The position numbers and the translations under genes are program-made. A stretch of DNA of 64,000 nucleotides from assembly GCF_035961655.1 (NCBI RefSeq), contig NZ_CP108393.1, positions 5,565,001 to 5,629,000 on the forward strand, written 5' to 3'. This DNA is from Streptomyces sp. NBC_01317. Its GTDB lineage: Bacteria; Actinomycetota; Actinomycetes; Streptomycetales; Streptomycetaceae. Of this stretch, positions 13,249-31,564 are shown piece after piece (positions within the stretch are counted from its first letter, which is position 1; every line of letters begins with the position of its first letter). A model generated the notes under the pieces. The model was not told the DNA's origin, did not search any database, and saw only the letters and a list, made by a program, of their open reading frames with translations.

Positions 13249-13653
13249 TCAGCCCGCCGTGTTCACCATCGACGCCGCCGCGTACGTCAGGTAGTCCCAG
13301 AGCTGTTTCCTGTGCTCCTCGGACAGTCCCAGCTCGTCGACCGCCACCCGCATGTGCCGGAGCCACGCGTCGTGCGCGGCCTGGTTCACCGCGAAGGGGG
13401 CGTGCCGCATCCGCAGGCGGGGGTGGCCTCGGTGGTCGCTGTAGGTGCGGGGGCCGCCCCAGTACTGCATCAGGAACAGCGTGAAGCGCTCCTCGGCGGG
13501 GCCGAGGTCCTCCTCCGGGTACATCGCCCGCAGCTCGGGGTCCCCGGCGACCCCCTGGTAGAAGCGGTGGACCAGGCGCCGGAAGGTCTGCTCGCCGCCG
13601 ACCTGCTCGTAGAAGGTCTGCTCCTGAAGCGTGCCGCGCGGAATCTCTTTCAC
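13249..13653 (-). CDS. glbO: Group II truncated haemoglobin (trHbO)
   Basis: A 134-residue 2-on-2 globin. Proximal His F8 is His-84 in RMRHAPFAV, Trp G8 is Trp-97 in DAWLRHM, and the B10 Tyr is Tyr-32 in RFYQGV. These are the hallmarks of group II (GlbO) proteins, which bind O2 and NO and are implicated in peroxide or NO detoxification. Length and start ([12 protein letters not shown]) match the family. Monocistronic; convergent with the unknown gene and divergent from the methyltransferase. Confidence 0.92.
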
Positions 13654-13833
13654 CTGACCATCGTCTCAGACACGACCGCCTCCCTGCCTCGGTCCAGCGA
13701 CCTAGGGCCTGCCGGACGTCGCGAGCCGGACACCACTTCGCGGACAGGCCCTGGGGCCCACCCCGTCCGGTGTGGACCGCCGTACGGACCCGGCCCGCTC
13801 GCTTCCTGGGCCCGTACCCAGGACAGTGGAGAG

Positions 13834-14886
13834 ATGGGCGCACACCGGGACCAGGACGTGTACAGACCGGACGAAGCGGCGGCCGGCGAGGCGCGGGCCG
13901 CGCTCGTGCAGGAGATCAGCCTGTCGGGGGTGCTGGACGATCCGGCCTGGCGTACGGCGTTCGCGCAGGTCCCGCGCCATCTCTTCGTCCCGTACTACTT
14001 CGTCGGGAGGCCCGGCGGCTACGACAGGCTCTGGTACGGGGACCCCGACCCCCGGCGGCGGGAGCGCTGGCTGCGCGGGGCGTACGCGGACAGCGCGATC
14101 GCGACGCGGGTACGGGACGGCGAGCTGATCTCGTCCAGCAGCCAGCCCTCCCTCATGGCCCGGATGCTGGACGAGCTGGACGTACGGGACGGCAACCGCG
14201 TCCTGGAGATCGGCGCGGGCAGCGGATACAACGCGGCGCTCCTCTCCCACCGGCTCGGCGAGGAGAACGTCACCACCGTCGACCTGGACCCGGAGATCAC
14301 GGAGTCGGCCCGCGCCCACCTCGCGACGGCCGGCTACCGGCCCGCCGTCGTCACCGGGGACGGGGTGCGCGGCTGCCCGGAGCGCGCGCCGTTCGACCGG
14401 ATCATCGCGACCTGCACCCTCCCGTCGGTGCCGAGCGGCTGGCTGGCGCAGTGCGCGCCCGGGGCCAGGATCCTCGCCCCGCTCGCCACCGGACTGATCG
14501 TCCTGAAGGCCGGGGAGGCGGGGACAGCGGGCAGGCCGGATTTCGCGGAGGGGCGGTTCCTCCGGACCGCGGCCTTCTTCGTACCGCTGCGGGGCACGCC
14601 CAAGGGGGTGCCCATGGCGGCACGGCCCCTCGGCGGACTGCCGAAAGGCGTCACCGACAACGACCTCTTCCGCTTCCTGCTCGCGCTGACCGAGGGCAGC
14701 CTCGACCCGCACGAGGCGCTCTCCCTCTGGGAGCTGGAGGGGCGCCCGGCTCGGGAGCGGTACGGCGTCACGGTCGGCGGCGGCCGCCAATGGGCGTGGC
14801 TGGACGACCCCGCGGGGCCGTACGTATGGCCGCTCGAACCGACGGGACCGGCCGCCGCCGGGCTGCTCAGCCCCGGCGGACCGTGA
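13834..14886 (+). CDS. PCMT-like SAM-dependent methyltransferase
   Basis: A 350-residue protein. The first ~230 residues have the protein-L-isoaspartate methyltransferase layout: a VPRHLFVP pre-domain, then ISSSSQPSLMARML and motif I VLEIGAGSGYNAALL, with acidic DLDPEI after it. Unlike ordinary PCMT (about 210 residues) it has a C-terminal domain of about 120 residues with no recognisable fold. Actinomycete proteins of this shape include both repair-like enzymes and maturases that modify ribosomal peptides. No precursor peptide gene is beside it, so I keep the general call. The ATG at 13834 has GGAG a few bases upstream. Its end overlaps the convergent FHA gene by 20 bases. Confidence 0.75.
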   Translation: MGAHRDQDVYRPDEAAAGEARAALVQEISLSGVLDDPAWRTAFAQVPRHLFVPYYFVGRPGGYDRLWYGDPDPRRRERWLRGAYADSAIATRVRDGELISSSSQPSLMARMLDELDVRDGNRVLEIGAGSGYNAALLSHRLGEENVTTVDLDPEITESARAHLATAGYRPAVVTGDGVRGCPERAPFDRIIATCTLPSVPSGWLAQCAPGARILAPLATGLIVLKAGEAGTAGRPDFAEGRFLRTAAFFVPLRGTPKGVPMAARPLGGLPKGVTDNDLFRFLLALTEGSLDPHEALSLWELEGRPARERYGVTVGGGRQWAWLDDPAGPYVWPLEPTGPAAAGLLSPGGP

Positions 14887-16090
14887 TCGTCGTCCAGGCG
14901 CCGACGTGCACCCGGTCGCCGTCCGACAGGGGGACGGGGACGTAGGGCTGGATCGGGTCCTCGGCGCCGTTGATCGTGGTGCCGTTCGTGGAGTTCTGGT
15001 CCACGACGGCCCAGGTGTCGTCCGGCTGGCGGACCAGGATCGCGTGCTGGTGCGAGACCCCGGGGTCCTCCGGCGGGACGGACAGGTCGATGTCGGGGGA
15101 CTCGCCGGTGGAGTGCCGGCGGCGGCCGATGGTCAGCTGGTGCCCGCCGAGCGTGAGCCGCTGCTCGGGGGAGTACGCGGGCAGATTGAGGCCCGTCGCC
15201 TCGGGGCCGCTGCGCTGCATCATCGCCATGAAGTACTCACGGTCGGGCCCGACGACGGCCGTCCATCCGACGGGCGGACCGTACTGCGCGGCCGGCGGGC
15301 CGTGCTGCGGGGAGGGCGGACCGTGCTGCGGCAGCGGCGACTGGCCGGCCGAGGGCGGCGGGAGCATCCAGTCGTCCTCGGCGGTCCCGCGCGACTGCGG
15401 CGGCGCGGGCGGGGCCGAGGACTGCTGCTGGAAGACGGGCGGGAGCGGGGGGCCCTGGTGCTGGTACGGCGGCGGGGGCGGACCCTGCTGGTGCGATCCC
15501 TGCTGGTGAGGGCCGCCCTGGTGCGGACCCTGCGGGTGCGACCCCTGCTGCGGCGGCGCCTGCCGCTGGAAGGCCGAAGGCGGCGGGCCCAGCGGCGATC
15601 CCTGCTGCGGCGCGTGGGGAGCGCCCTGCTGGTGGCCCTGTTCGGCCGCGAGCGGCTCCGCGGGCCGGTTCAGCTGGGAGGGGCGTGAGCTCTGGTACTC
15701 GTACGGGTCCGGCGGCCTCGGCGGTCCCTGGGACGGGAAGCCCGGCGGCGGATTGACGCCGGGGACCGGCCCTGTGGGCCGGCTGACCGGACCGCCCTGC
15801 GGAGCCAGCGGGGTGTACGACGTGGCCGTGTTCGTGAGGAAGTTCCACCGGCACTCCTCGCAGAACGGAGCCATCGGCTCGCGCGGGGTGCGGCACTGCG
15901 GGCAGAGCTGGGCCTGCATGGTCGCGTCGGGTCCGGGGCCCGGGCCGGGGGCGGGCGGAAAGCCGTAGCCCGGCGGCGGGGGAGGAGGCTGGGGCACGGA
16001 GCCCGTGGGCGCCTGGCCTGTCATGCGATGGCCGCAGACCTCGCACCAGTCGTCGGATCCCGACTGGTGTCCGTTCGGGCATGTCGGCAT
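14867..16090 (-). CDS. Zinc-ribbon and FHA-domain protein
   Basis: A 407-residue protein. It starts MPTCPNGHQSG at the ATG at 16090. Two zinc ribbons precede about residue 85: Cys-4 with WCEVCG, then LCPQCRTP with FCEECRW. A long Pro/Gln/Gly-rich disordered linker (about 90-285) follows. A C-terminal FHA domain (about 315-407) keeps the phosphothreonine-binding residues: GRR, a Ser-His in VSHQHA, and NSTNGT. It is the last gene of the glnX-glnH-pknG-PP2C-VWA-FHA run, so it is a natural reader or substrate of PknG, analogous in role to mycobacterial GarA, though it is much longer and shares only the FHA domain with it. Partner choice is inference. Confidence 0.85.
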   Translation of the reverse strand: MPTCPNGHQSGSDDWCEVCGHRMTGQAPTGSVPQPPPPPPGYGFPPAPGPGPGPDATMQAQLCPQCRTPREPMAPFCEECRWNFLTNTATSYTPLAPQGGPVSRPTGPVPGVNPPPGFPSQGPPRPPDPYEYQSSRPSQLNRPAEPLAAEQGHQQGAPHAPQQGSPLGPPPSAFQRQAPPQQGSHPQGPHQGGPHQQGSHQQGPPPPPYQHQGPPLPPVFQQQSSAPPAPPQSRGTAEDDWMLPPPSAGQSPLPQHGPPSPQHGPPAAQYGPPVGWTAVVGPDREYFMAMMQRSGPEATGLNLPAYSPEQRLTLGGHQLTIGRRRHSTGESPDIDLSVPPEDPGVSHQHAILVRQPDDTWAVVDQNSTNGTTINGAEDPIQPYVPVPLSDGDRVHVGAWTTITVRRG

Positions 16091-16182
16091 ATCGGCGCTT
16101 CCCCCTTCCTGTGCGGCCCGGAGGCCGGATTTCTCACCACTGGTTCCCGGGCGGTACCGCTCGGCGCCGCCCGGTCGCGCTC

Positions 16183-17541
16183 CTACTTCTTGACGCGAAC
16201 CGTCTTGGTGGAGCGGGTTTCGAGGGTCATCTCGTCCGCTTCCGCGACTTTCGCCTTCAGTCGCACAGTACCGCTCGCTTCGTCGACGACGTCCACCACC
16301 TTCGAAAGCAGTTTCGCCGTATCCGCGTTCCCGGAGAAGGCGGCGAGCTGTACGGCGCGGCCCAGCTTCGCCGTCGCGCCGTCCAGATCGCCCATCTTCC
16401 GTGCGTCCAGGCCCTGTTGGATGACCTGGGCCAGCTCGGCCTGGCCGGTGTAGTGGGCGACTTGGGGGTTGATGGAGGTGGAGGCCTCCATGTCGTCCGT
16501 CCACACCGCCCGTACCAACCCCTGGGACAGCATCTCGGGGGAGCCGCCGTCCGGCGCCGGGATGATGAGGGAGACGCGGGCGGCCAGCATCTCCCTGCCT
16601 ATGCCGGCCTCCGGGACCCGTACGCACACGTGGTAGTCGCGGGACTCGTCGCCCCACGAGCCGGTCGGGTAGTCGCCGGCCCGGGGCCCCGCTTCCGTAC
16701 GCCGGTCCGTGAGCTGCTCGACCCGGGGCGCGACCTGCTTGACGAACGCGATCTCCACCCCGACCGGCGTCCAGAGGCGCAGCGACACGTCCGCGACCTC
16801 CTTGCCCATCGCGTTTGTCATCATCTGCGTGAAGTCCGCGGCCAGTCCGGCGGGGTCGGCGACGATGTCGGAGGTGCCGAGCAGTGCCGACGCGATGCCG
16901 GTGACCTCCTTCACCTCCCAGTCCGTCCCCACGCCCCTGGCGTCGCAGGTGAAGCGGCCGGCGCAGTCGTCCAGCGCGGACCTGAGGGCCTCGGACGACT
17001 CGTGTTCGTTCCGGCCGTCGGTGAGGAGGATGCCGTGGCGGATGGTGACCTCGGCGGAGTTCAGCAGCCGGTCGGCCAGCCGCAGCCAGGTGCTGATCGC
17101 CGTACCGCCGGCCGCGTTGAGCCGGCGCAGCGCGTGCTTCGCCTCTTCCCTGGTCCGCGCGTCGGCGACGGCCAGCCGGCCGTTGCCCGGGTAGACCTCC
17201 TTCGCCAGGTGCGTACCGGCGACCACCGCGAAGGCGACCCCGTCGCGCAGGGTGTCCACGGCGGCGGCCGTCGCGTCGCGCGCGTTGCGCATCTTCGCCG
17301 GCGGGTACTCCATCGACCCCGAACAGTCGACCATGATCACCACGGCTGCGTCGGGGCTGTTGCCGGGCACGGCCGAGGGGGTGGCCGAGGCGCCGAGCAG
17401 CGGGACCCGGCCCGAGGTGCCGCCGCCCGTGGAGGTGACGGTGACGATGGCGTTGACCTCGCGGCCGCCCTCGGGCAGGTACTCGTTCTGGTACACGTCG
17501 ACCGAGAATTGCGGCACGTTCGACTTGGAGAAGTTGGCCAT
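16183..17541 (-). CDS. von Willebrand factor A domain protein
   Basis: A 452-residue cytoplasmic-looking protein without signal peptide. The start is at ATG 17541, with AAGGAG 10 bases upstream. Residues about 60-260 form a VWA domain with an intact MIDAS metal site: DCSGS (DxSxS), a Thr in GGTAIS and Asp in LLTDGR. A beta-rich middle and a helical C-terminal region (EASGTVRLKAKVAEADE near the end) follow. VWA proteins paired with PP2C phosphatases and Ser/Thr kinases are known from TerY-P type triads in tellurite/stress operons, where they act as metal-dependent adaptors. The same trio occurs here without ter genes. A scaffold role for the phospho-signalling block is inferred. Confidence 0.85.
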   Translation of the reverse strand: MANFSKSNVPQFSVDVYQNEYLPEGGREVNAIVTVTSTGGGTSGRVPLLGASATPSAVPGNSPDAAVVIMVDCSGSMEYPPAKMRNARDATAAAVDTLRDGVAFAVVAGTHLAKEVYPGNGRLAVADARTREEAKHALRRLNAAGGTAISTWLRLADRLLNSAEVTIRHGILLTDGRNEHESSEALRSALDDCAGRFTCDARGVGTDWEVKEVTGIASALLGTSDIVADPAGLAADFTQMMTNAMGKEVADVSLRLWTPVGVEIAFVKQVAPRVEQLTDRRTEAGPRAGDYPTGSWGDESRDYHVCVRVPEAGIGREMLAARVSLIIPAPDGGSPEMLSQGLVRAVWTDDMEASTSINPQVAHYTGQAELAQVIQQGLDARKMGDLDGATAKLGRAVQLAAFSGNADTAKLLSKVVDVVDEASGTVRLKAKVAEADEMTLETRSTKTVRVKK

Positions 17542-17588
17542 CGCGTTTCGCTCCTTGACGCTCCACAGACCGGAACAAGAGAAGGGGA

Positions 17589-19556
17589 TCAGGGGAGGAC
17601 GGGGGCCTTTTCGTACGCGGATCCTGCCCCTTGCCCAGGTACGGCGAACGGCACCAGGGCCACCGTTACGTTGTCGTGGCCCCCTCCGTCGAGCGCGTGC
17701 CCGACCAGGACCCGCGCGGCGTGCAGCGGGCGGGCCGCCGCGTCGGGCGGCAGGACCCTGGCCATGTCGTCGGCGCCCTCGGCGTAGTTCCACAGCCCGT
17801 CCGTGCAGACCACCACGACGCCGGGGCGGTCCGGTTTGAACGACGCGGTGTGCGGCTCCAGTTCGTACGCGTCGGCGCCGAGCCATCCCGTGATGGCGTG
17901 GGCGCGTTCGTCCGCGTACGCCTCCGCCTCGTTCATCAGGCCCGCCGCGACCATCTGCGCGGCCCACGAGTCGTCCTCGGTGAGGCGGGCCGGGGGGCCG
18001 CCGCGGTCGTCGGGGACCCAGTACGCCCTGCTGTCGCCGATCCAGCCGACGACCAGCAGTCCGCTCGCGACAACGGCGCCGACGATGGTGCAGGCGGGGG
18101 CGTTCTGGTGGCGGTGCGGCTCGTGCTCCGACGCCCTGCCGGGCTCCGGGGCCAGCGCGTTGACCGCTTCGGCGGCGGCGACGATCGCCTCGTGCATCGC
18201 CTGCTGCGGGTGCGTGCCGCGCGGCAGGGCGGTCAGCAACGACTCGTTGGCGGAGGCCGCGGCGGCGGCCGAGGCCTCGTCGGGGCGGGTCGCGGAGGAC
18301 ACGCCGTCGCAGACGATCGCCACGACGGCGGGGGAGGCGTCGGGGAGGGCCGCGGCGGACACGGCGAACGCGTCCTCGTTGCGGTGGTGGCGCAGGCCGC
18401 GGTCGCTGACCGCTGCCACCGTGCCCAACTCCTGCTCCATGTGGTCGCGTTCGCGCGGCTGGGCGTGGCCGCAGTTCTCGCAGTAGCCGTCGAGGTCCAC
18501 GCGGCCGGCCCGGCAGGCGACACAGAGCTTCGCGCCGGGCGCGGGGGACGCGGTACGGGGGTCTCCTGCGGGGCTCCCGGCGGGGGTGGCGCTCGTGCCG
18601 ACCGTGCCGTCCGTGCCGTCCGCGCCGTTCCCGCCGGGAGCGTCGGACCGTACGGGCGGGTGGGGCGCGGGCAGCTCGAAGTCACCCGCGTGCGGGGCCG
18701 TGCCGACCGTGCCGGCGGCCGGGGGTGGCAGCGGCGCACCGTTTCCCTGCAGGGGCGGGGCCTGCGCGGCGGCTGTGGGCGGTGCGGCCTGCGGGGGGCC
18801 CGCGATGGGTGGGGGTGGGCCGGCCGATGCGTGCGGAGCGGGCGGCCCGGGTGGTGTGGGTGGTACGGGCGGGTGCGCGGCGGCCGGGTGTTGGGCGGGC
18901 TGCGGGGGTACGGGCGGCGTGGCCGACGGACCGTTCGTGCGCGACGCGGGTGGTGCGGCTTGCGGGGGGCTCGCGAGCGGTGCGGGCGATGTGTACGGAG
19001 CGGGCGGTACGGGCGCGTGGGCGGCGTCGGGGTGATGGGCTGGCTGCGGGGGTACGGGCGGGTCGGCGGCCACGGACGGGTCCGGCCGCCGGGGTCCGGC
19101 CGGGGGCGTGGGCGGGTGGACCGACAGGGGGGAGCCGGACGAGTCCAGGCCCGGCAGCTCGCTGGGCACATGGACGGGCGCGGGCACGTTCGAGCTGTCC
19201 GTCTCGGCGGCGGGCGGCCATGCGACGGGACCGGCGGCGGCGGGGGTGCCGCCTACGGGACCGCTGCCGGCGGGCGAGCTGCCTACGGGACCGTGGGTAG
19301 GTGTGCCGCCCACGGGAGCGGGGCCGGCGGGCGCGCTCCTGACGGAACCACCGCCGGCAGGCATGCCGCCTACGGGACCGGTGCCGATCGGGCCGCCGGT
19401 CAGGGCGACCGTCGGGCGGTCACCGCCGCTCGTGCCCGTGGCCACGGCCGACAGGTCGTACCCGCACGCCCCGCAGAACAGGTCGGCGGGCTCCAGCGGA
19501 TCCCCGCAGCCGGGGCAGGTCGGGCCATCGGTCGACCGGTGCATCTGCGCCATCAC
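17589..19556 (-). CDS. Zinc-ribbon PP2C-type Ser/Thr phosphatase
   Basis: A 655-residue protein. The N-terminal zinc ribbon is TCPGCGDP with FCGACGYD. A Pro/Ala/Gly-rich linker of about 290 residues follows, then a second ribbon (LCVACRAG with YCENCG, about 345-370). The PP2C catalytic domain (about 380-640) has metal-binding motifs NEDAFAV, VCDGVSS, GDSRAYW and GGHDNVTVA, all intact. It should dephosphorylate PknG targets or PknG itself. The GTG at 19556 directly follows the pknG stop, with an ATG 3 bases later, so the two are translationally coupled. The two ribbons and long linker mirror those of the kinase and FHA protein, suggesting shared assembly through ribbons or linkers. Confidence 0.88.
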   Translation of the reverse strand: MMAQMHRSTDGPTCPGCGDPLEPADLFCGACGYDLSAVATGTSGGDRPTVALTGGPIGTGPVGGMPAGGGSVRSAPAGPAPVGGTPTHGPVGSSPAGSGPVGGTPAAAGPVAWPPAAETDSSNVPAPVHVPSELPGLDSSGSPLSVHPPTPPAGPRRPDPSVAADPPVPPQPAHHPDAAHAPVPPAPYTSPAPLASPPQAAPPASRTNGPSATPPVPPQPAQHPAAAHPPVPPTPPGPPAPHASAGPPPPIAGPPQAAPPTAAAQAPPLQGNGAPLPPPAAGTVGTAPHAGDFELPAPHPPVRSDAPGGNGADGTDGTVGTSATPAGSPAGDPRTASPAPGAKLCVACRAGRVDLDGYCENCGHAQPRERDHMEQELGTVAAVSDRGLRHHRNEDAFAVSAAALPDASPAVVAIVCDGVSSATRPDEASAAAAASANESLLTALPRGTHPQQAMHEAIVAAAEAVNALAPEPGRASEHEPHRHQNAPACTIVGAVVASGLLVVGWIGDSRAYWVPDDRGGPPARLTEDDSWAAQMVAAGLMNEAEAYADERAHAITGWLGADAYELEPHTASFKPDRPGVVVVCTDGLWNYAEGADDMARVLPPDAAARPLHAARVLVGHALDGGGHDNVTVALVPFAVPGQGAGSAYEKAPVLP

Positions 19557-22500
19557 TCACACCCACGTCCGGGGGCGGAAACGGTTGGCCCGCTCCACCA
19601 GTTCGATCCTCTCCTCGCCGCGCTGAGCGAGCCGGGCGAGTACCCGGTACGAGCGTTCCAGCCCGAAACGCAGGCCGCGCTCGTCCAGCGCGCTGCCGAG
19701 CAGCACGGCCGGGCCGGGGCGGCCCCCGGGACTACCGGAGAGTACCCAGTCCAGAGCCGTGCCCAGTACCTCCGTCGACAACTGTTCACGCCGCACCGCG
19801 TCCAGGCCGAACTGCTGGAGCTCGGAAACCTGCCGCGCCGCCGCCGACAGGTCGTCGATCAGCGCCGGTTCCGTGCCCGGGGTCCGGGCCGCTTCCCGGG
19901 CCGGTACGGCCACGTCACGCTCGCGCAGCCTGGCCCGTACGGCCGCGACACGCGCCGCCGTGTAGTGGATCGACGCCTCGGGCACGGACTCCAGGGTCCG
20001 TACGGCCGAGGCCCGGTCACCGGCGGCCAACTGCACCCTGGCCAGGCCGAACGCGGCGCTGACGTAACTCGGGTCGGTCATCCAGACCAGGCGGTAGTAC
20101 TCGGCGGCGTTGTCGAGCTGGCCGAGCACCTCGGCGCAGACCCCCAGCGCGAGCTTGGGCGCGGGCTCGCCGGGGAACGCGTCGTAGATGGCGTCGTACG
20201 CCAGCGCCGCGCTCTCGTGATCGCCGGTGGCCAGGGCGAACAGGCCCCGGTACCAGACGACCCGCCAGTCGTCGGGGTGCTCCGCCTCCAGCGCGCGCAG
20301 CGCCTCACCGGCGGGGACCAGGTCGTTCATCTCCAGCCGGGCCCGCAGCTCGCGCAGCCGGCGCTCCACGGTGTCGGCCGGGGCCGACGCCAGCGCGGAA
20401 ATGAGTTCGGCGGGGGCGGCGGCCATCAGGCTCGCCAGGAACCCCGCGTTCGGGTCGTTCGGGTCGACCCGGGGGACGGGCAGCGCGAGCGCGGTCGCGG
20501 GCGCGTCCATGGCCACGAGCCGCGGCCCCCGCCCCCCGCCGCCCACGGGCGCCAGGCTCTGCCCCTGCCCGAGGGCCGGAACGTACGCGGCGTGGCCCCG
20601 CCCGGCCGGCGGAACGGAACCCGGACCCTGTCCCGAAACGTCCGGAGACGCCGAACCGAGGCTTTGGCCGTGGCTGTTGGCCGGGCCCGGCCCGTAGCCC
20701 TGGCCCGCGCCCGGAACCGGCAGGGCTGAGCTGTGGCTCTGGCCCTGGGCCGAGCCGTGGCCCGCGCCGGGCGCCGGGCCGGCGGGCGGGGCGGAAGCCG
20801 GACCCGGGCCGAAGGCCGGGGTCCGGCCCCCGGCGGGAGCCGGCAGAGGTGAGCCGTGGTTCTGGCCCTGGGCCGAGCCGTGGCCCGTACCGGGGGCCTG
20901 TCCGGTGGGCGGGGTGGCAGCCGGGCCCGGGCCGTAGGCCTGGGCGCCCTGGCCCGGGGGCGAGCCGTGGCTCGCACCTGGGGTCTGCCCGGTCCGCGGG
21001 GCGGCAGCCGGGCCCGGGCCGTAGGCCTGGGTCCGGCCCCCGCCGGGAGCCGGCAGGGGGGAGCCGTGGCCCAGGCCCGGGGCCGAACCGTGGCCCGTAC
21101 CGGGCGCCTGCCCCGCGCGTGGAGCGGAGGCCGGGCCCGGGCCGTAGGCCGGGGCCTGGGCGCCGAGCGGCAGGGGCGACGGGGTCTCGCCCTGGGGCGG
21201 GATCGGGAGGGCCGAGCCGTGGCCCTGGCCCGGGCCGTACGCCGGGAGTTGGCCCGGGAGGGGACCTGGGGTGGAGGCGTACATGGAGGCCTGGACCTGT
21301 CCCTGGGGTTGGGCAGGCGCCTGGCCGGGGATCTGGGGGCGACCCTGCGCGGAGGCGTACTCCGGGGACCGGACCTCGCCGGGGAGCTGTGCCTGTGCCG
21401 CGAGGTCCGGGGTACCCGGCACCGTTCCCGGCGCCGCCGACGGCCGCGCCCCCCGGCCCTTCCGGCGGGCCGTCCGCGCGCCCAGGCGGGACACGTCCTC
21501 CGTCGGCTGTGCGAACAGCTCCGTGTCCGTGACCCGTACCTCCGTACCGAACAGCGTCGACAGTGCCGGGCGCGGGCGCCCCGTCTGGAGGGCCACGACC
21601 TCCCGCAGCACCCCCGTCAGCTGTTCCGCCATCTCCAGCGCCGAGGAGAACCGCCGCGCCGGGTCCGGGTCCGTCGCCCGCACCAGCAGGCGGTAGAACG
21701 ACTCGTACGTACGGAAGACCTCAATGGTGCCCGGGTCCGGGAGGGAGTCCACGAACACGTTCGTGTAGCCGTGGAAGTCGAAGGTCATCACCGCGAGCGT
21801 GCGCGCCACCGTGTACAGGTCCGAGGCCACCGACGGACCCGTCTCCGCGACCTCCGGCGCCTGGTACCCGACGGTGCCGTAGATCGCCGACTCGTCGTCG
21901 TCCACCCGGCGGACCGCGCCCATGTCGATCAGCTTGAGCTGGTTCTCCGTCTGGATCGCGTTGTCGACCTTGAAGTCGCAGTACAGCAGGTTCCTGCTGT
22001 GCAGGTGACCCAGCGCCTCCAGCGCCTCGATGCCGTACGCGCACGCCTGCTCCACCGGCAGCGGATCGCGCTGACCGGTGGCCGTCCGCCGCTCGTTGGC
22101 GATCTCCTTGAGCGACTTCCCGCCCACGTACTCCATGACGATGTAGCCGTCCATGGAGCCGGTCCGCTGGTCGAGGTGCTCCACGAAGTTGTAGATGCGG
22201 ACGATGTTCGAGTGCTCGATCTCGGCGAGGAAGCGCCGCTCGGAGATCGCCGCCTCCATCGCGTCCTGGTCGCCCGTGTCCAGCAGGCCCTTGAGGACGA
22301 CCCAGCGGTCCGAGACGGCCCGGTCGATCGCCAGGTAGACCCACCCCAGACCGCCGTGCGCCAGGCAGCCCTTGACCTCGTACTGCCCGTGCACCACATC
22401 GCCCCGGGTCAGCTTCGGCACGAACGAGTACGGGTGGCCGCACTTCGTGCAGAACCCTTCCGTACGGCCCGGCCGGTCACCCCGCGAACGCCCCACCGGC

Positions 22501-22967
22501 GCACCGCAGTCGGAACGCGAGCAGAACCGCTTGCGCTCCGGCACCTCCGCGTTCTCCATCACCGCGGCCTGCGGATCCGGACGCGGCACGTCCGGTACGG
22601 AGACCAGCCCGGCGCCCAGCCTGCCGCGCCCCGAGGTCGTGGAGGACGCACCGGAGCTGCGGACCGACACCGACCGGCCGGTCGCCGCCGTGCCCGACTG
22701 CGCCAGGGAGAGCCGGCCGGACACCGAGCGGCGGGAGGTGGCGGAGCGCGAGGAGGCCCGGGAGGAGGCGCGCGACGACGAACTGCCGCGCGCGGAGCGC
22801 CCGCTGGCCCGGCCGCCGCCCGTGACGCCCGTGGCCGGCGAGGACAGCTCGCCGCGCGCGCCCACCACCGGGGCGAGACCGCAGGTGTCGCAGTACAGCT
22901 CACCGCCGCCCATGTCCTCGTACGAGCCCTCGCACCCGGGGCGCTGGCATGTGCCCGTCCCGCTCAT
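19557..22967 (-). CDS. pknG: PknG-type Ser/Thr protein kinase
   Basis: An 1136-residue kinase with PknG architecture. An N-terminal ribbon (Cys-7, 12, 27, 30) and a Ser/Arg-rich segment lead to a rubredoxin-like metal site (CSRSDC at 149-154, CTKCG at 173-177). The kinase domain (about 192-460) has ATP lysine Lys-226 (VVLKGL), catalytic Asp-331 (YCDFKVDN) and DMG replacing DFG, as PknG proteins depart from consensus. A Gly/Pro/Gln-rich repeat tract (about 500-815) precedes a TPR-like C-terminus (830-1136). Mycobacterial PknG (about 750 residues) regulates 2-oxoglutarate metabolism through GarA in response to GlnH/GlnX; the upstream glnX and glnH homologues argue for the same input. The inserted repeat tract is absent from the mycobacterial protein. 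Confidence 0.92.
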   Translation of the reverse strand: MSGTGTCQRPGCEGSYEDMGGGELYCDTCGLAPVVGARGELSSPATGVTGGGRASGRSARGSSSSRASSRASSRSATSRRSVSGRLSLAQSGTAATGRSVSVRSSGASSTTSGRGRLGAGLVSVPDVPRPDPQAAVMENAEVPERKRFCSRSDCGAPVGRSRGDRPGRTEGFCTKCGHPYSFVPKLTRGDVVHGQYEVKGCLAHGGLGWVYLAIDRAVSDRWVVLKGLLDTGDQDAMEAAISERRFLAEIEHSNIVRIYNFVEHLDQRTGSMDGYIVMEYVGGKSLKEIANERRTATGQRDPLPVEQACAYGIEALEALGHLHSRNLLYCDFKVDNAIQTENQLKLIDMGAVRRVDDDESAIYGTVGYQAPEVAETGPSVASDLYTVARTLAVMTFDFHGYTNVFVDSLPDPGTIEVFRTYESFYRLLVRATDPDPARRFSSALEMAEQLTGVLREVVALQTGRPRPALSTLFGTEVRVTDTELFAQPTEDVSRLGARTARRKGRGARPSAAPGTVPGTPDLAAQAQLPGEVRSPEYASAQGRPQIPGQAPAQPQGQVQASMYASTPGPLPGQLPAYGPGQGHGSALPIPPQGETPSPLPLGAQAPAYGPGPASAPRAGQAPGTGHGSAPGLGHGSPLPAPGGGRTQAYGPGPAAAPRTGQTPGASHGSPPGQGAQAYGPGPAATPPTGQAPGTGHGSAQGQNHGSPLPAPAGGRTPAFGPGPASAPPAGPAPGAGHGSAQGQSHSSALPVPGAGQGYGPGPANSHGQSLGSASPDVSGQGPGSVPPAGRGHAAYVPALGQGQSLAPVGGGGRGPRLVAMDAPATALALPVPRVDPNDPNAGFLASLMAAAPAELISALASAPADTVERRLRELRARLEMNDLVPAGEALRALEAEHPDDWRVVWYRGLFALATGDHESAALAYDAIYDAFPGEPAPKLALGVCAEVLGQLDNAAEYYRLVWMTDPSYVSAAFGLARVQLAAGDRASAVRTLESVPEASIHYTAARVAAVRARLRERDVAVPAREAARTPGTEPALIDDLSAAARQVSELQQFGLDAVRREQLSTEVLGTALDWVLSGSPGGRPGPAVLLGSALDERGLRFGLERSYRVLARLAQRGEERIELVERANRFRPRTWV
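20690..21180. repeat. Degenerate ~40-residue coding repeats in pknG
   Basis: At least four imperfect units, about 120 bp each, one about 30 bp shorter, encode AYGPGPASAPRAGQAPGTG-like segments followed by HGS(P/A)xxGQ and LPAPxGGRT. They lie between the kinase and TPR parts of PknG. Repeat number may vary and assembly across it could be error-prone. Confidence 0.7.
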
Positions 22968-23064
22968 CGGTCCCCTCCTGTCCGTGTCCCTGACGGTGGA
23001 TCTGTCGGTTGTACGGCCGGCCGCACCCGCCCCGCTGCCGCTGCCGTCGCCGTGGTGGTGCCGC

Positions 23065-24417
23065 TCACGGCCGCCCCCCGCCGTCCGCCGGGCCCGGGGC
23101 GCGCGGGACCAGGAGGTCCGCCGCCGCCTGCTGGTACCGCAGGACGGCCTGCTCGGCGACCCGCAGGTCGCACGGCGCGCTCCACAGCATCCGGCGGGCC
23201 GCGTCGTACCGCTCGATCAGCACCGGGTCCTCCGCCATGCCGTGCCGGGCGACCTTGGCCTTGTAGGCGTCGAGCCGGCCGCGCAGCTCCGCGCGGACCG
23301 CGAGCGGCTGCGTGACGGCGGTCAGCGACTCGCGGGCCCGCAGCAGTTCGTCCTCGGCCTCGCGCTCCAGCGACTCCAGCAGCGGCGAGAGCCGGTGCCA
23401 CTGGGCGTGCCTGCGGTACTCGGCGGCGGTCGACAGCCGTTCGTGGAGGACGATCGGCGGCCCGCTGACGGCGGGCACCTCCGACGCGGCGATCTTCGCG
23501 AGCACCTCGCCCCGGGCGGCGCGGGCCTCGGTGAGCGTGCGGTCCGCGCGGGACACGACGTCCCGCAGCCGCATCAGCCGCTCCTCCGAGTCCTGGCGCA
23601 CCGCCAGGACCGCCTCTATCTCGCGCCGTACGTCCTCCAGCGCGCGGGCCGCCCGGTCGTACCGCTCCGTGTCCGGCCGGCCGCCGCCGGGGGCCGAACT
23701 CCCCGGCGCGGGCCGCCAGAAGCCCAGGGGGTCGGACACCACCTGGGCGCGCAGGGCGGTCAGTTCGTGCGTGATCGACTCCAGGTCGTCCCCGGCCGGG
23801 TGTTCCCCGGGCCGTACGCCCACCGAGTGCGCGAGCGACAGTGTCCGCCGCAGCTCGGTGGAGAGCAGGTCGATCCGGGCGGGCAGCGCGGACCACACCG
23901 AGTCGGCGGCCACGACCATGTCGAGAGCGCGCGCGTACAGCTCGTTCATCCGGGAGACCAGCTCCGCGAGCGTGAAGCGCTCGGAGAGCTGGGCGGGTCC
24001 CGTGATCGAGGACGGCGGCTGGTGTTCCGCCGACCCGGCGAGGGCGGCCGCGCCCGAGAGCGTGACGCTGCTGCCGCGCAGCGTCTCGGTCAGCTCCACC
24101 AGGTCGTCGCGGTTCGGCCAGCGGCGCCTGGCGCGGGTGTCACGGGCACCGCTCAGAGCCGCGCTGTAGGCGTCGAAGTACGTCCACAGCAGGGTGATCG
24201 ACTGCTCGGTCGCCGCCCAGCGGTCCTTCGTGACGCCGGTGAGCGCGGCCCCTTCGAGGAGTCTGCGGCCCGCGTGGTCCTGGAGGGCGAGGAGGGAGGT
24301 CTCGATGGCTTCGTGCTCGGCTTCGAGGCGCGCCAGCGCGCGGTCGGCCTCGTCCCGGTCCATCACCGGTCCGGATGGCACTCCCCTGGAGTCGGGGATG
24401 GAGCCCGCGCCGCCCAT
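23065..24417 (-). CDS. Coiled-coil protein of the glnX-pknG operon, unknown
   Basis: A 450-residue protein I cannot assign. It is almost wholly helical and charged (ARLEAEHEAIETSLLALQDH near the start; ERYDRAARALEDVRREIEAV near 255) with no signal peptide or membrane segment, consistent with a coiled-coil scaffold. The ATG at 24417 has AGAGG 7 bases upstream. It lies between glnH and pknG, where the mycobacterial glnX-glnH-pknG operon has nothing, so it is a streptomycete addition. An adaptor linking sensor to kinase is a reasonable hypothesis only. Confidence 0.75.
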   Translation of the reverse strand: MGGAGSIPDSRGVPSGPVMDRDEADRALARLEAEHEAIETSLLALQDHAGRRLLEGAALTGVTKDRWAATEQSITLLWTYFDAYSAALSGARDTRARRRWPNRDDLVELTETLRGSSVTLSGAAALAGSAEHQPPSSITGPAQLSERFTLAELVSRMNELYARALDMVVAADSVWSALPARIDLLSTELRRTLSLAHSVGVRPGEHPAGDDLESITHELTALRAQVVSDPLGFWRPAPGSSAPGGGRPDTERYDRAARALEDVRREIEAVLAVRQDSEERLMRLRDVVSRADRTLTEARAARGEVLAKIAASEVPAVSGPPIVLHERLSTAAEYRRHAQWHRLSPLLESLEREAEDELLRARESLTAVTQPLAVRAELRGRLDAYKAKVARHGMAEDPVLIERYDAARRMLWSAPCDLRVAEQAVLRYQQAAADLLVPRAPGPADGGGRP

Positions 24418-24460
24418 CGATCACCTCTCCGCTCGTTCGTGTCCTGCCGGAACTCCGTGT

Positions 24461-24520
24461 CGGAACAACGCACATCCTGGGGAACAACGCCCGTCCTCGG
24501 GGGACGAGGCACATCCCGGG
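24461..24520. repeat. Three imperfect ~20-bp tandem repeats
   Basis: GGAACAACGCACATCCTGG (from 24462), GGAACAACGCCCGTCCTCGG (from 24481) and GGGACGAGGCACATCCCGGG (from 24501) are head-to-tail in the 122-bp gap between glnH and the coiled-coil gene. Confidence 0.6.
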
Positions 24521-24539
24521 GCCCGCCCGAGCGGCCCGC

Positions 24540-25616
24540 CTACCCGTTCTTGTACTTGGCGGGAGGCGGCGCGGTGATCCCCGGCAGCCCCGCCGCCAGC
24601 CACTTCCGGTACGAGGTCATCCAGGGGCTGTTGTCCCCACCGGCGCGATACCCCACCAGCACCTCGTTCACCCGGCGGACCAGGTCGTCGTTCCCGAGCT
24701 TGGCCGCGACGCCGTAGTACTCCGTGGTGAACGGCTTGCCCGTGAGTTCGACCGTCGGGTCCTGCGCGGCCTGGCCCGCCGCGAGCGCGTTGTCCGTCAC
24801 CACCGCGTCCACCTCGCCCAACTGGAGCCGGACCAGGCAGTCGAGCTGGTTGGGGACCGTCAACAGGTCCTCGTCACCGGGCTTCCCGTCGTTCTTGTCC
24901 TGGTAGATCGCACCGAAGGACTCCTCCTTCATCGCTTCGTACGCCGTCGAGCCCTCCGCCGTGCAGACCCGCTTCCCGGCCAGCGACGTGTCGCGCCCGG
25001 TGATCGTCGAGCCCTTGGGGGCGAGCACCTGCTGGCCCGCCTGGAAGTAGGCGGTGGAGAAGGCGACCTGCTTGATCCGGGCGCAGTTGATCGTCATCGT
25101 CCTGACGACCAGGTCCACCGTGCCCTTCTCCAGCGCCGGCACCCGCTGGTTGGTGGGGATCGCGAGGAAGATGATCGCGTCCGGGCTGCCCAGGATGTCG
25201 TTGGCGATCGCCCGCGCGAGATCGATGTCGAAGCCCTGGATCTTGTTCGACTCAGGGTCGCGGTACCCCCAGCGGTAGCTGTTCTGGTCGACGCCCACGA
25301 CCAGTTTCTTCCGGGCCTTGATCCGCTCGATCGCCGGGCCGTCGGCGGTGGAGGGCGGCAGGCTGGCTTCCGGCTCCGAGCAGTCCTCGGCGGCGGCGGA
25401 CGCGGAGGTGACCACGCGCTGGGCCGCCCGGTCCGGACCCTTCTCCGACGTGCTGTGGGCGAGCGGCAGCAGGGTGAGCGACGCCGTCACCACACAGGCC
25501 GCGGCCATGGCGGTGACACCGCCCCAGCCACGGAGCCTGCCCGGGCGACGGAGCCTGCCGGCGCCGCGAGGGCCGCCGGACGGGCGCGGCCCGCCGGACC
25601 GGCGGAGCCTGTCCAT
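24540..25616 (-). CDS. glnH: GlnH-like amino-acid-binding protein
   Basis: A 358-residue family 3 solute-binding protein. An N-terminal hydrophobic segment (VTAMAAACVVTASLTLLPLA, about 30-50) anchors or exports it; an AAAC in it could serve as a weak lipobox. The ligand domain starts near 95 (KLVVGVDQNSYRWGY) and includes KIQGFDIDLARAIA and RTMTINCARIKQVAFS. Four Cys in the mature part could form two disulfides. GGAGGG 9 bases upstream favours ATG 25616 over ATG 25625. No transporter genes are adjacent; instead it is followed by the pknG run and preceded by glnX, as in mycobacteria, where GlnH senses Asp/Glu-type amino acids. A sensing rather than transport role is inferred. Confidence 0.85.
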   Translation of the reverse strand: MDRLRRSGGPRPSGGPRGAGRLRRPGRLRGWGGVTAMAAACVVTASLTLLPLAHSTSEKGPDRAAQRVVTSASAAAEDCSEPEASLPPSTADGPAIERIKARKKLVVGVDQNSYRWGYRDPESNKIQGFDIDLARAIANDILGSPDAIIFLAIPTNQRVPALEKGTVDLVVRTMTINCARIKQVAFSTAYFQAGQQVLAPKGSTITGRDTSLAGKRVCTAEGSTAYEAMKEESFGAIYQDKNDGKPGDEDLLTVPNQLDCLVRLQLGEVDAVVTDNALAAGQAAQDPTVELTGKPFTTEYYGVAAKLGNDDLVRRVNEVLVGYRAGGDNSPWMTSYRKWLAAGLPGITAPPPAKYKNG

Positions 25617-25636
25617 GGAAGTCATCCCTCCGCCTC

Positions 25637-26977
25637 TCACCGGTACTCCGAAAGCCTGCGGCCTATGCCCAGGATCGCGGCCACCGCGCCGAGCAGGGCC
25701 AGGACCCCGGCCCCGACGGCCAGTCCCGTCAGCGCGCTCCTGCCGTCCGTGGCGGAGGCGTCGAACTCCACCTGTTCGTGCGCGATCGCCTTCTCCAGGG
25801 CCGCGTCCACCTGGTCGAAGCACTCACCGGTGGATCCCTCGGTGCCGATCACCCGCTCCAGCGCGAGCTCGTAGTCACCGGCCTTGTCCGTGGCGCTGGC
25901 CGACCTGTGGCGCTTCTGCCACTCGTCGGCGGAGGCGATGGCGGCGGCCACCGGCGCGACGCCCGAGCCGTCGTCGGCCAGGCCCTTCGCCCGGTCGAGC
26001 GCGGTGGTGAGCCTCGCCATGCCCGACGTGTAGTCCGTCTCGTACTTGTCGTCGCCGTCCGCCGTGAGAACCGCGCCCCGTGCCACCAGCGTGAGGTTCT
26101 CGTTCGCCCGGGCCTTGAGCGAGTTGATCCGCGCGTCGTTCAGGACCGCGAGCGACTCCTGCCCGTGCACCTGGGCGTTGTTCAACTCGGTCCGCGCGAC
26201 CGTGTGTCCCACGGCCAGCCAGAGCAGGATGGCGGTGGACGCGGCGGTCGCCGCGAGCAGGCCGTGGTTAACCAGCCGGTTCGTACGACGGTAGTTGCGC
26301 CGCTGCGCCCAGAACAGCACGGCGAAGGCGAGCACGCCCAGCGCGAGGGAGACGAACGGCCACACCCGCGCGTCGTTGTTGTCCCGGTCGAGCCTGGCCG
26401 TCTCCTCCGCGTACAGCTTCTCGGCGGCCGGCAGCAGGTCGCTCGTCATCTGCTGGTTCGCGTACCGCAGATAGGCGCCGCCCAGCGGCAGCCCCTGACG
26501 GTTGTTCGCCCGGGCGCGCTCTATCAGACCCGTGTACCGGGGGAGGGCCTCGTTGAGTGTCGCTATCTGCCGGGCCGCGTCGCCGCCGCCCGAACCGCCC
26601 GTGTTGGCGGCGGCCTTGACCAGCAGCCGGGACGCCGTCTCTATGTCCTTCTGATACCGCGCCAGATCCTCGGGCCGCTCCTGCGCGCCCGCCAGGAAGC
26701 CCGTCGCCGCGGCCGTGTCCGCGTCGGCCAGCGAGCGGTATATGTTCGCCGCGTCCGCGCTCAGCGGCTGACTGCGGGTCACCACGTCGTCGGCGGCGGC
26801 GAAGCGGTCGGAGACCTCCCAGGCCGTCACCGCGCCGAAGGCCACGACCAGCAGGGCCAGCGCGGCCCCGATGATCCGCAGCCGCCCGGGCTCCGTCGTC
26901 GCGGAAGCGCGCAGGCGCTCCACGGTCTCGGCCCACGCGCCGTGCGCTGCGGGCGACGGAGACGCTGGGTATGTCAC
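25637..26977 (-). CDS. glnX: GlnX-like membrane sensor
   Basis: A 446-residue membrane protein. It has four hydrophobic segments at roughly 33-55, 205-228, 237-262 and 410-435, enclosing two extracytoplasmic helical regions of about 150 residues, as in mycobacterial GlnX. It has no HAMP, kinase or HTH domain, so it must signal through other proteins. The GTG at 26977 has GGGGGAGG just upstream; a longer reading frame lacks a comparable site. It is the first gene of the glnX-glnH-orf-pknG-PP2C-VWA-FHA series and only 11 bases before glnH. By analogy it would relay GlnH ligand state to PknG. Confidence 0.82.
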   Translation of the reverse strand: MTYPASPSPAAHGAWAETVERLRASATTEPGRLRIIGAALALLVVAFGAVTAWEVSDRFAAADDVVTRSQPLSADAANIYRSLADADTAAATGFLAGAQERPEDLARYQKDIETASRLLVKAAANTGGSGGGDAARQIATLNEALPRYTGLIERARANNRQGLPLGGAYLRYANQQMTSDLLPAAEKLYAEETARLDRDNNDARVWPFVSLALGVLAFAVLFWAQRRNYRRTNRLVNHGLLAATAASTAILLWLAVGHTVARTELNNAQVHGQESLAVLNDARINSLKARANENLTLVARGAVLTADGDDKYETDYTSGMARLTTALDRAKGLADDGSGVAPVAAAIASADEWQKRHRSASATDKAGDYELALERVIGTEGSTGECFDQVDAALEKAIAHEQVEFDASATDGRSALTGLAVGAGVLALLGAVAAILGIGRRLSEYR

Positions 26978-27366: not shown

Positions 27367-28383
27367 TCACACGAAGTGCTCACCCAGCCGCACATGCGCC
27401 TCCGCGCTCGCCCCCACCCGGTCAAGACCCAGCAGCGCGGCCCCCAGCACCGGCGGCGCCGTGACCACCTCCACGTACGCCTTCGGCGCCTTCGCCGCCA
27501 GCCGCTCCGCGATCCCGTCGTCCAGCTGCGGATGACGCGCCGCCAGCACACTGCCGCCGAGGAGCACCGGCGCCTCCTCGCCCAGCAGGTCCAGCTTGCC
27601 GAGCGCGACCGTGGACAGCGCCACGACCTCCTCCGCCAGCCGGTCCACCAGCGACCGGGCGACCGGGTCGCCCGCCGCGCTCGTCGCGAACAGCACCGGC
27701 GCCAGCTCGTGCCGCCGCGCGTAGGGGATGTGCCCCCGGTGCAGCGCCTCGATCAGGTCGTACATCGTCGCCAGGCCGAAGTGCCCCGGCAGGGTCCGTA
27801 CCAGCTCCGTCGGCTCGCCCCGGCCGTCCTCGGCCCGGGCGCCGTAGTACATCGCCTCTTCCGCGAGCCCCGAACCGCCGCCCCAGTCACCGGAGATGCG
27901 CCCGAGCGCGGGGAACCGCGCCGTCCGCCCGTCCGGCAGCATGCCGACGCAGTTGATGCCCGCGCCGCACACGACGGCCACACCCCGCGGCTCCGCGCCG
28001 CTCGGCAGGCCGGCCCGCAGTATCGCGAAGGTGTCGTTGCGCACGTCGGTCGTACGCCCCCACCCCCGCGCCTGCACCGCCTCCGCCAGCTCCCGCTCCT
28101 CGACGGGCAGGTCGGCGTTGGCCAGACACGCCGACACATGGTCGGCGAAGTCCAGCCCCGGCAGCCCCGCCGCCGACGCGGCCTCGGCGATCGCCACCGC
28201 CAGGATGTCGATCGCCGCCTCGATCCCGACGACCGGCGGCTGGAAGCCGCCCCCGCGGGCCGTGCCCAGCACCGAACCGTCGGCGCCGATCACGGCCACA
28301 TCGGTCTTGCTGTTCCCGGCGTCGACGGCGAGGACGCTGCCGCGCCCCGCCGCCGGGCCGGCCGTGCCCGTCCCCGTGCTCAT
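27367..28383 (-). CDS. csnK: BadF/BadG-type amino-sugar kinase, CsnK
   Basis: A 338-residue ASKHA-fold kinase. The phosphate-1 motif is VLAVDAGNSKTDVAVI (17-32), and later motifs are VVCGAGINCVG and ISGDWGGGSGLAEEAM, which fit N-acetylglucosamine/glucosamine kinases of the BadF family. It overlaps csnH by 4 bases (ATGA) and ends the operon, followed by a terminator. The likely role is phosphorylating glucosamine or N-acetylglucosamine released intracellularly from chitosan oligosaccharides. The csn name rests on the complete csnR-E-F-G-H-K order; glucosamine specificity is inferred. Confidence 0.82.
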   Translation of the reverse strand: MSTGTGTAGPAAGRGSVLAVDAGNSKTDVAVIGADGSVLGTARGGGFQPPVVGIEAAIDILAVAIAEAASAAGLPGLDFADHVSACLANADLPVEERELAEAVQARGWGRTTDVRNDTFAILRAGLPSGAEPRGVAVVCGAGINCVGMLPDGRTARFPALGRISGDWGGGSGLAEEAMYYGARAEDGRGEPTELVRTLPGHFGLATMYDLIEALHRGHIPYARRHELAPVLFATSAAGDPVARSLVDRLAEEVVALSTVALGKLDLLGEEAPVLLGGSVLAARHPQLDDGIAERLAAKAPKAYVEVVTAPPVLGAALLGLDRVGASAEAHVRLGEHFV

Positions 28384-29645: not shown

Positions 29646-29650
29646 GGTTC

Positions 29651-30553
29651 TCAGCCCTTTACTCCGGTGAGCGTGACGCCTTCGACGAAGGCCTTTTGTG
29701 CGAAGAAGAACACGATGATGACCGGGGCCATCACCAGCAGAGTCGCCGCCATGGTCAGGTTCCAGTTGACCGAGTGCGCGCTCTTGAAGGATTCCAGTCC
29801 GTAACTCAGTGTCCAGGCCCCCGGGTTCTGCGCGGCGTAGATCTGCGGCCCGAAGTAGTCGTTCCAGCAGTAGAAGAACTGGAACAGGGCGACGGCCGCG
29901 ATGCCGGGCTTGGCCATCGGTACGACGATCTTCAGCAGCGTGCGCAGTTCGCCGCAGCCGTCGACCTTCGCCGACTCGATGTACTCCTGCGGGATGGTGA
30001 GCAGGAACTGCCGCAGCAGGAAGATCGAGTACGCGTCGCCGAACGCCATCGGGATGATGAGCGGCCACAGCGAGCCCGACAGGTGGAACTGCTGCGCCCA
30101 CACCAGGTACATCGGGATGATGATGACCTGCGGCGGCAGCATCATCGTGGAGATGACGAGGATCATGGCCGTACGGCGGCCCCGGAAGCGGAACTTCGCG
30201 AGGGCGTACGCGACCGGGACCGACGAACAGACCGTGAAGACGGTGCCCAGCACCGCGTACACCAGCGAGTTGCGCCACCAGGTCAGGAAGCCCGGCGTGT
30301 GGAACACCGTCGAGTAGTTCGACCAGTGCCACGAGGTCGGCCACAGGTCGCCGCTCAGCGCCTGCCCGTCGCTCATCACCGAGGTGAGGAAGACGAACAC
30401 GAACGGCAGGATGAAGAAGAGCGCCAGCGCGAGCGCCACGGAGTGGACCGCTATCCAGTTCAGGATCCGCTTGCGGCGGTGCCGGGCGGCGTCGGGCCCG
30501 CGGTCGCGGGTCCGCTCGGCGGCGGGTGGCGCGGTCAGGGTCGTGGTGGTCAT
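29651..30553 (-). CDS. csnG: ABC sugar permease, MalG type, CsnG
   Basis: A 300-residue inner-membrane permease with six hydrophobic segments and the EAA loop YIESAKVDGCGELRTLLKIV (near 195-215) that contacts the ATPase. It belongs to the MalG-like CUT1 permeases and pairs with the preceding csnF, whose stop is one base before this ATG. No ATPase gene is in the operon, typical of Streptomyces CUT1 systems that share MsiK. Substrate (chitosan oligosaccharides) is inferred from the operon. Confidence 0.88.
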   Translation of the reverse strand: MTTTTLTAPPAAERTRDRGPDAARHRRKRILNWIAVHSVALALALFFILPFVFVFLTSVMSDGQALSGDLWPTSWHWSNYSTVFHTPGFLTWWRNSLVYAVLGTVFTVCSSVPVAYALAKFRFRGRRTAMILVISTMMLPPQVIIIPMYLVWAQQFHLSGSLWPLIIPMAFGDAYSIFLLRQFLLTIPQEYIESAKVDGCGELRTLLKIVVPMAKPGIAAVALFQFFYCWNDYFGPQIYAAQNPGAWTLSYGLESFKSAHSVNWNLTMAATLLVMAPVIIVFFFAQKAFVEGVTLTGVKG

Positions 30554-30554
30554 C

Positions 30555-31553: not shown

Positions 31554-31564
31554 GACCCGGCTCC

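Follow-up and report, generated by a model that had tools for sequence, protein, structure and literature searches.

A seven-gene PknG operon of Streptomyces composed of two separately lost modules, with a possible role in glutamate catabolism

The 64,000-nucleotide stretch of Streptomyces sp. NBC_01317 analysed here (contig NZ_CP108393.1, positions 5,565,001 to 5,629,000; hereafter the window) contains a cluster of seven minus-strand genes with short gaps or overlaps between them. In order of transcription, they encode a membrane signal transducer GlnX, an amino-acid-binding protein GlnH, an unnamed coiled-coil protein (CC), the Ser/Thr kinase PknG, a PP2C phosphatase, a VWA protein and an FHA protein. 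This operon consists of two modules that are lost separately, GlnX-GlnH-PknG (module 1) and CC-PP2C-VWA-FHA (module 2), a division that is new here. We hypothesize that an aspartate/glutamate-sensing kinase is joined in it to a second arm, formed by module 2, which acts on glutamate catabolism. We give this reading, whose biochemistry we infer throughout, about even odds (roughly 0.5).

The seven genes are linked in nearly all Streptomyces sampled. The 80 named loci are the top-scoring ones among at least 586 VWA-similarity matches and are thus biased to close relatives possessing VWA; in each of them the seven genes are arranged and oriented identically up to the contig ends, and all 58 loci of at least 21 kb contain the complete set (57 carry the title Streptomyces and one 'Actinobacteria bacterium'). 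Another 20 loci, picked among the VWA matches of lowest identity, were also read: 16 have all seven genes (with PknG split over two frames in L192), two are cut by contig ends and two are without GlnX, GlnH and PknG. Of 119 genomes sampled from the order, 114 give a VWA match, which is weak in G104 and fragmented in G022 and G100, and 113 have PknG_TPR, reduced to a remnant in G022. The initial annotation of the cluster had staked its proposal on the linkage of VWA, PP2C and FHA to pknG in most Streptomyces, and this linkage is what the neighbourhoods display in nearly all of those examined.

Six Streptomyces genomes (G022, G040, G044, G084, G087 and G111) have lost module 1: at the locus GlnX, GlnH and PknG are gone or broken, and CC, PP2C and FHA are retained in all six. 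PknG was searched genome-wide, giving no PknG_TPR in five of these genomes and only a remnant in G022 (G002, from another family, is also devoid of PknG_TPR), and the status of GlnX and GlnH comes from the locus only. Motif patterns, three for PP2C and three for FHA, match in every one of the six; the PP2C ones are three of five patterns, the other two having matched few rows, intact relatives included. The VWA gene is whole in two of them, G084 and G087. Another genome, G089, was excluded from the losses as its contig ends beside PknG. Since CC sits between GlnH and PknG in intact relatives, a single simple deletion cannot explain these losses. In a CC tree of 44 rows, made up of the loci of interest and one in four of the named loci, they need four changes (four to five with bootstrap; at least three are forced by starred branches); the six genomes represent about four independent losses.

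The converse pattern is found in two other families, f6 and f55, where the sensor and kinase genes are kept and CC, PP2C, VWA and FHA are mostly gone. GlnX-GlnH-PknG stands alone in nine of 11 f6 rows, the remaining two being second copies, and in eight of 11 f55 rows, with two more carrying PP2C and one representing a second-type cassette. Family f6 is Mycobacterium-like: the PknG of its locus L082 is very close to the solved PknG 2pzi, which we take to be the structure from M. tuberculosis. Next to PknG, the 11 f6 loci read show none of CC, PP2C, VWA and FHA, in agreement with the earlier statement that mycobacteria have only glnX-glnH-pknG at this place; GarA was said to lie elsewhere, and it is indeed a separate gene, also in the genome of NBC_01317 itself (L223). 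The treatment of all seven genes as one unit does not survive, however: a seven-part complex standing or falling together is ruled out by the separate losses. The initial observation is correct and wider than claimed, and its interpretation needs recasting as two modules.

The set also extends beyond the streptomycetes, to which the initial annotation had assigned it. Gene neighbourhoods were searched with models that started from the Streptomyces genes and were later broadened. In a class-wide sample of 197 genomes, PknG_TPR is present in 56 (55 above cut-off), and the order holding G121 has it in 53 of 160 genomes. In the class-wide sample a VWA match with E < 1e-40 accompanies it in 36 of the 56 PknG-bearing genomes (broken in G022 and G202) and is found in none of the 141 PknG-less ones, eight of which give short or weak VWA matches (2e-11 to 3e-5). 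All seven genes occur in seven family codes (f1, f3, f19, f20, f39, f46 and f53), six genes with no CC above threshold occur in f13 and f28, and one contig of f43 carries PknG, PP2C, VWA and FHA. Names could be attached to f19 (Planomonospora, 99.8% to L094; a relative of Nocardiopsis, 83% to L095), f46 (Fodinicola acaciae, 99.8%) and f28 (close to Nocardioides and Pimelobacter, 91%). In f19, GlnX-GlnH lie downstream of FHA in all six loci showing both; in L091 they come after PP2C, with no VWA or FHA found at this locus, and L092 is cut. The pair has moved yet is still linked to the others, so the linkage outlasts rearrangement.

A PknG tree of 82 rows places seven-gene forms on both sides of its midpoint, and the three-gene form is therefore more simply explained as a reduction, with midpoint rooting only. 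Rows under about 690 bits were dropped from this tree except for a few second copies, and most f1 rows were left out, four named loci being used.

Residue counts were taken from alignments over all fetched loci, where rows short of the full count have gaps or substitutions. In the metal-ion-dependent adhesion site (MIDAS) of VWA, DxSxS is kept in 155 of 160 rows, T in 153 and D in 156; the FHA domain keeps GR in 142 and SxxH in 143 of 147 rows, PP2C the metal-binding DG in 151 of 155, and PknG the catalytic Lys in 178 and DxKxxN in 173 of 189. These alignments, with Pfam or NCBIfam families for every product except CC, bear out the initial annotation of seven same-strand genes with an intact MIDAS, and the catalytic and FHA residues are intact too. 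Its N-terminal zinc ribbons on kinase, phosphatase and FHA protein stand in part. The kinase matches PknG_rubred above cut-off, and CxxC pairs are conserved in the other two proteins: of 72 named Streptomycetaceae rows, 69 have three CxxC ahead of the FHA domain, and PP2C has four CxxC in 69 of 79, with similar counts in most other families (CxxC counts are variable in the kinase). However, the Pfam ribbon models reach only 21 bits for PP2C and 17 bits for FHA against a cut-off of 27, and the zinc-ribbon assignment in these two proteins therefore rests on the CxxC pairs. The linkers are Pro/Gly-rich by reading of the translations.

Table 1. Genes of the cluster and the MIDAS motif, in window coordinates.
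Feature	Coordinates	Strand	Description
GlnX	25637..26977	-	Membrane signal transducer, 446 aa; four hydrophobic segments (hydropathy); GTG start at 26977
GlnH	24540..25625	-	Amino-acid-binding protein, 361 aa; Pfam SBP_bac_3 82 bits (cut-off 26.4); adjoins glnX
CC	23065..24417	-	Unnamed all-helical coiled-coil protein, 450 aa
PknG	19557..22967	-	Rubredoxin + Ser/Thr kinase + TPR, 1136 aa; long low-complexity linker
PP2C phosphatase	17589..19556	-	655 aa; four CxxC (two likely zinc ribbons); PP2C_2 50 bits
VWA protein	16183..17541	-	452 aa; Pfam VWA_3 and VWA_3_C, above cut-off
MIDAS DxSxS motif of VWA	17314..17328	-	Residues 72-76, read from translation
FHA protein	14867..16090	-	407 aa; N-terminal CxxC pairs (likely double zinc ribbon), long linker; FHA 57 bits

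GlnX (Table 1) scores 476 bits against NCBIfam NF058618 (cut-off 250) and 182 bits against the narrower equivalog NF041460, below its cut-off of 780. The kinase matches PknG_TPR (275 bits), PknG_rubred (108) and Pkinase (92), all above cut-off; it has solved relatives 2pzi, 7q52 and 7mxb and is the single PknG match within its genome. A solved relative of VWA is 4fx5 (E 5.4e-134), and the isolated FHA domain gave no PDB match at E ≤ 0.01. CC has no Pfam or NCBIfam family above cut-off, only one weak Pfam coiled-coil match (E 0.09). It has at least 2564 homologues, and among the 120 listed those with names are 'hypothetical' or 'uncharacterized'. Its AlphaFold2 model (mean predicted local distance difference test, pLDDT, 86.7) is all-helical with long helices, and Foldseek found nothing in the PDB at E ≤ 0.001 (best 0.7).

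The 3' end of the FHA gene overlaps by 20 bases a convergent gene (13312-14886) whose translation reads as a methyltransferase. Directly upstream of glnX, at 27367-34262 of the window, are genes reading as the chitosan-oligosaccharide csnR-K operon. In S. coelicolor, csnR is SCO2657, the first of six genes (PMC6097792), and SCO2662 is a saccharide kinase (PMC6520443). Following the numbering of this csn cluster, without alignment, we infer that the window genes correspond to SCO2663-SCO2669, and the window kinase seems to be SCO2666. The SCO2666 kinase was detected as phosphorylated in S. coelicolor; a phosphorylated VWA protein of the S. rimosus phosphoproteome, SRIM_014225, could not be mapped to the VWA of the window (PMC9600765). 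Among SCO2663 and SCO2665-SCO2669, only SCO2666 is named in the open-access literature searched (SCO2664 was not searched).

Binding of Asp/Glu by GlnH activates PknG in mycobacteria and C. glutamicum (PMC6069109, PMC9769921), and the glnX-glnH-pknG operon with its conservation, Streptomyces included, is already published (PMC6069109). The parts of that article drawn on here mention none of PP2C, VWA, FHA and CC as a neighbour, and the extended operon was not found described in the parts of the open-access literature searched (PknG with PP2C, von Willebrand, FHA, TerY, GDH and SCO numbers). The window operon resembles the GlnX-GlnH-PknG-GarA/OdhI circuit of Mycobacterium and Corynebacterium in the same sensor pair and rubredoxin-kinase-TPR kinase within one operon, in an FHA protein as the likely phospho-partner and, as a best guess, in an output at the glutamate node. 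It differs in adding CC, PP2C, VWA and FHA, with GarA being a separate gene. Like GarA and OdhI, the FHA protein is tied to PknG and has a candidate glutamate dehydrogenase (GDH) partner, known for GarA and suggested here by fusions; unlike them, it has a CxxC-rich N-terminus, a long linker and no ETTS motif, and belongs to a separate FHA family. That it could be GarA itself is ruled out, as the OdhI model gives 21.2 bits against a cut-off of 200; the separate GarA of the same genome (L223) carries SETTSTISISG.

Evidence on the output comes from gene fusions. In G144 (f29), the last gene of the operon, after PknG-PP2C-VWA, would encode 2316 residues in one frame, comprising in order a CxxC pair, FHA, NB-ARC, TPR and an NAD-dependent GDH (NAD-GDH; Bac_GDH_CD 763 bits), with coding bias along the frame. 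A search with its FHA part among proteins of like length returned three (P0129, P0130 and P0131), all of them FHA-GDH fusions. P0129 is identical to the G144 protein over the searched part; P0131 (2567 residues) has an N-terminal kinase, a cyclase-like region (by reading), FHA, a STAND-type ATPase, TPR and NAD-GDH. Across some 130 residues, the FHA domain of the window is 47% identical to each fusion FHA; to GarA it shows no real match. A model of the module FHA, trained with the FHA of G144 included but not those of P0130 and P0131, gives the fusion FHA domains 142-147 bits, compared with at most 43 per domain for other Streptomyces FHA proteins, GarA included (30 loci from seven Streptomyces genomes, where the survey listed 57 FHA hits; 74 bits is the maximum summed over two-domain proteins). 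Two f6 loci of genus g35 (L085, 204-10621; L086, 1340-10583) carry on one strand an NAD-GDH (by Pfam in L085, by tblastn in L086), an amino-acid permease, a second PknG and then a MerR gene. Mycobacterial GarA inhibits the same NAD-GDH type (PMC8175468). Short of proof, the fusions and the g35 neighbourhoods point to glutamate breakdown as an output, by a route separate from GarA.

The relay of module 1 is established in mycobacteria and corynebacteria, and we predict that it works here in the same manner: extracellular Asp/Glu would be bound by GlnH, and GlnX would pass the signal across the membrane and switch PknG on. Module 2 would then be an attached output arm. Its FHA protein would be a further phospho-regulator that resembles GarA without being GarA; depending on Thr phosphorylation, which PP2C would reset, it most likely binds NAD-GDH, or another enzyme of the glutamate/2-oxoglutarate node, and controls it. 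Docking of the kinase to this arm is the most likely task of VWA with its MIDAS, and CC may provide a helical scaffold. Lineages f6 and f55, having kept mainly module 1, would depend on GarA, and some Streptomyces would have kept module 2 only.

Several observations weigh against this reading. Only three proteins show the FHA-GDH fusion, and just one genome has it at the operon position; there the GDH lacks its first ACT domains, an internal start near residue 1234 is possible, and the neighbouring VWA is reduced to a weak C-terminal match. A GDH gene was found in just three of 245 loci (L099, L085 and L086) and not in the window, and the S. clavuligerus GDH of this type is directly regulated by amino acids (PMC8175468). 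Neither ETTS nor TTS is present in the FHA protein of the window, and GarA is kept in all six kinase-losing Streptomyces genomes, so that a second FHA regulator is not obviously required. Module 2 outlives PknG, with G084 and G087 having VWA without the kinase, and thus another kinase may feed it, or it may have another target. Finally, VWA alone is lost in G104 and lacks residues 53-243, which hold the MIDAS, in G100; it is also missing or broken in four of the six kinase-losing genomes, and three loci each of f19 and f39 have no VWA match or a very weak one. VWA is therefore not essential everywhere.

Parts of the operon recur in duplicate cassettes. In f20, a second cassette (L195, L196) comprises CC, PP2C, VWA and FHA together with a kinase that has no TPR and whose catalytic positions are degenerate. 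This PknG-derived kinase lies between CC and PP2C-VWA-FHA (L195, 12407-14491; L196, 12435-14573; TPR is missing by Pfam in L195) and, judging from its sequence, is likely a pseudokinase. Three loci of the f20 genus g39 (L197, L198 and L205) have only PP2C-VWA-FHA, without PknG, within the 20 kb read; L199, a short contig, was excluded from these trios. In L195, L197, L200 and L205 the second cassette adjoins a gene reading as cysteinyl-tRNA synthetase. In G202, a truncated VWA lies between the PP2C and FHA genes (L200, 8482-11976), and the PknG locus of this genome (L106) has only GlnX-GlnH-PknG-PP2C.

VWA paralogues form another group. Among 12 loci retrieved for such paralogues in the taxonomic order (L128-L139), a PknG-like kinase is the direct neighbour in 10, and two (L132, L133) show kinase similarity within the VWA frame, for which Pfam confirms a kinase-VWA fusion in L132. 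This f3 protein (8412-11324) combines kinase, VWA and a weak DnaJ-like match in a single chain, with T and D of the MIDAS replaced. A PknG-like kinase also neighbours the VWA paralogue in L116-118 and occurs without VWA in L119, L120 and L140. In L129 (G085:C7, 4733-12910) we found a trypsin-like protein with weak CC similarity, PknG2, VWA2, a protein weakly resembling GlnX and a solute-binding protein of the sugar type, which may represent a sensor for a different ligand. The VWA family thus mostly travels with PknG-type kinases, and the sensor may be exchanged. In L141 (G079:C30, 7837-10824), a VWA 73% identical to that of the window is fused to a CHAT protease with no PknG, an arrangement known from conflict-type systems, and four reading frames tested around it gave no Pfam match.

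An alternative, which we regard as unlikely, is that module 2 mainly regulates PknG itself, through its phosphorylation state and docking, with GarA as the sole metabolic output. N-terminal phosphorylation of PknG is reported to recruit the FHA substrate (PMC8546545), the kinase-VWA fusion suggests direct contact, and GarA is present both in the NBC_01317 genome and in all six kinase-losing ones. However, CC, PP2C and FHA outlast PknG in about four lineages, the f20 trio exists without PknG within the region read, and the FHA-GDH fusion indicates an enzyme as the target.

The initial annotation had also compared the kinase, PP2C and VWA genes with the TerY-P triad, and one may ask whether module 2 is of this vWA-kinase-PP2C class, a metal/stress phospho-switch or defence module that was acquired next to the PknG operon and has no part in glutamate metabolism. 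The likeness is real in that PknG, PP2C and VWA genes are consecutive and likely zinc ribbons occur in the set, recalling the kinase, PP2C and VWA theme of TerY-P (PMC11090510). The models matched by the VWA protein are VWA_3 and VWA_3_C. In actinobacteria, neighbouring sets of a zinc-ribbon kinase, an active PP2C and a standalone vWA are linked to GAP1-N2 GTPase conflict systems (Kaur et al. 2020, PMC7159879), which offer an analogy, although the window cluster has in addition a sensor pair and FHA. The VWA-CHAT fusion of G079 also speaks for such a class. Nevertheless, this explanation is improbable. The TerY-P kinase has a C-terminal zinc ribbon or OB fold (PMC11090510), whereas the window kinase is PknG-type, with an N-terminal rubredoxin and C-terminal TPR, and this architecture rules out membership and leaves analogy only. 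The window set is furthermore joined to an amino-acid sensor, includes an FHA gene and has no recognisable Ter-like gene among its neighbours, whose translations (the csn-like sugar operon, the methyltransferase) were read with no model search run. PADLOC models gave no match for the FHA, PP2C, VWA and CC proteins, and PknG matches them via the kinase domain only (25 of 26 rows shown). The locus is near-universal in sampled Streptomyces, as opposed to the patchy spread expected of defence genes, and the FHA-GDH fusions again count against this class. Ancestral synteny of genes with unrelated functions in a slowly changing core region would agree with the BadF-like upstream and methyltransferase-like downstream genes that also flank the seven in most named Streptomyces loci reaching that far, but is very improbable, given that the same genes stay together in another family despite the GlnX-GlnH rearrangement and recur in duplicate cassettes and as fusions.

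Returning to the preferred reading of a sensing kinase with an arm acting on glutamate catabolism, we tentatively propose a broader version, to which we assign somewhat less than even odds. The seven-gene operon may lie near the original state of PknG signalling in the class, because seven-gene forms lie on both sides of the tree midpoint, and the mycobacterial three-gene circuit may be its reduction. The CC-PP2C-VWA-FHA arm would then be an undescribed cassette directly controlling NAD-GDH in parallel to GarA, able to work without PknG and rewired to other sensors in the duplicates.

Few bacterial Ser/Thr kinases have been studied as thoroughly as PknG. Should the mycobacterial circuit prove to be a reduced version, the four genes absent from it would point to possible substrates of the kinase, its cognate phosphatase and a protein that docks it. 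In Streptomyces, the operon would couple external Asp/Glu to glutamate catabolism and hence to nitrogen supply for antibiotics, and natural strains that have lost one module only are ready comparisons.

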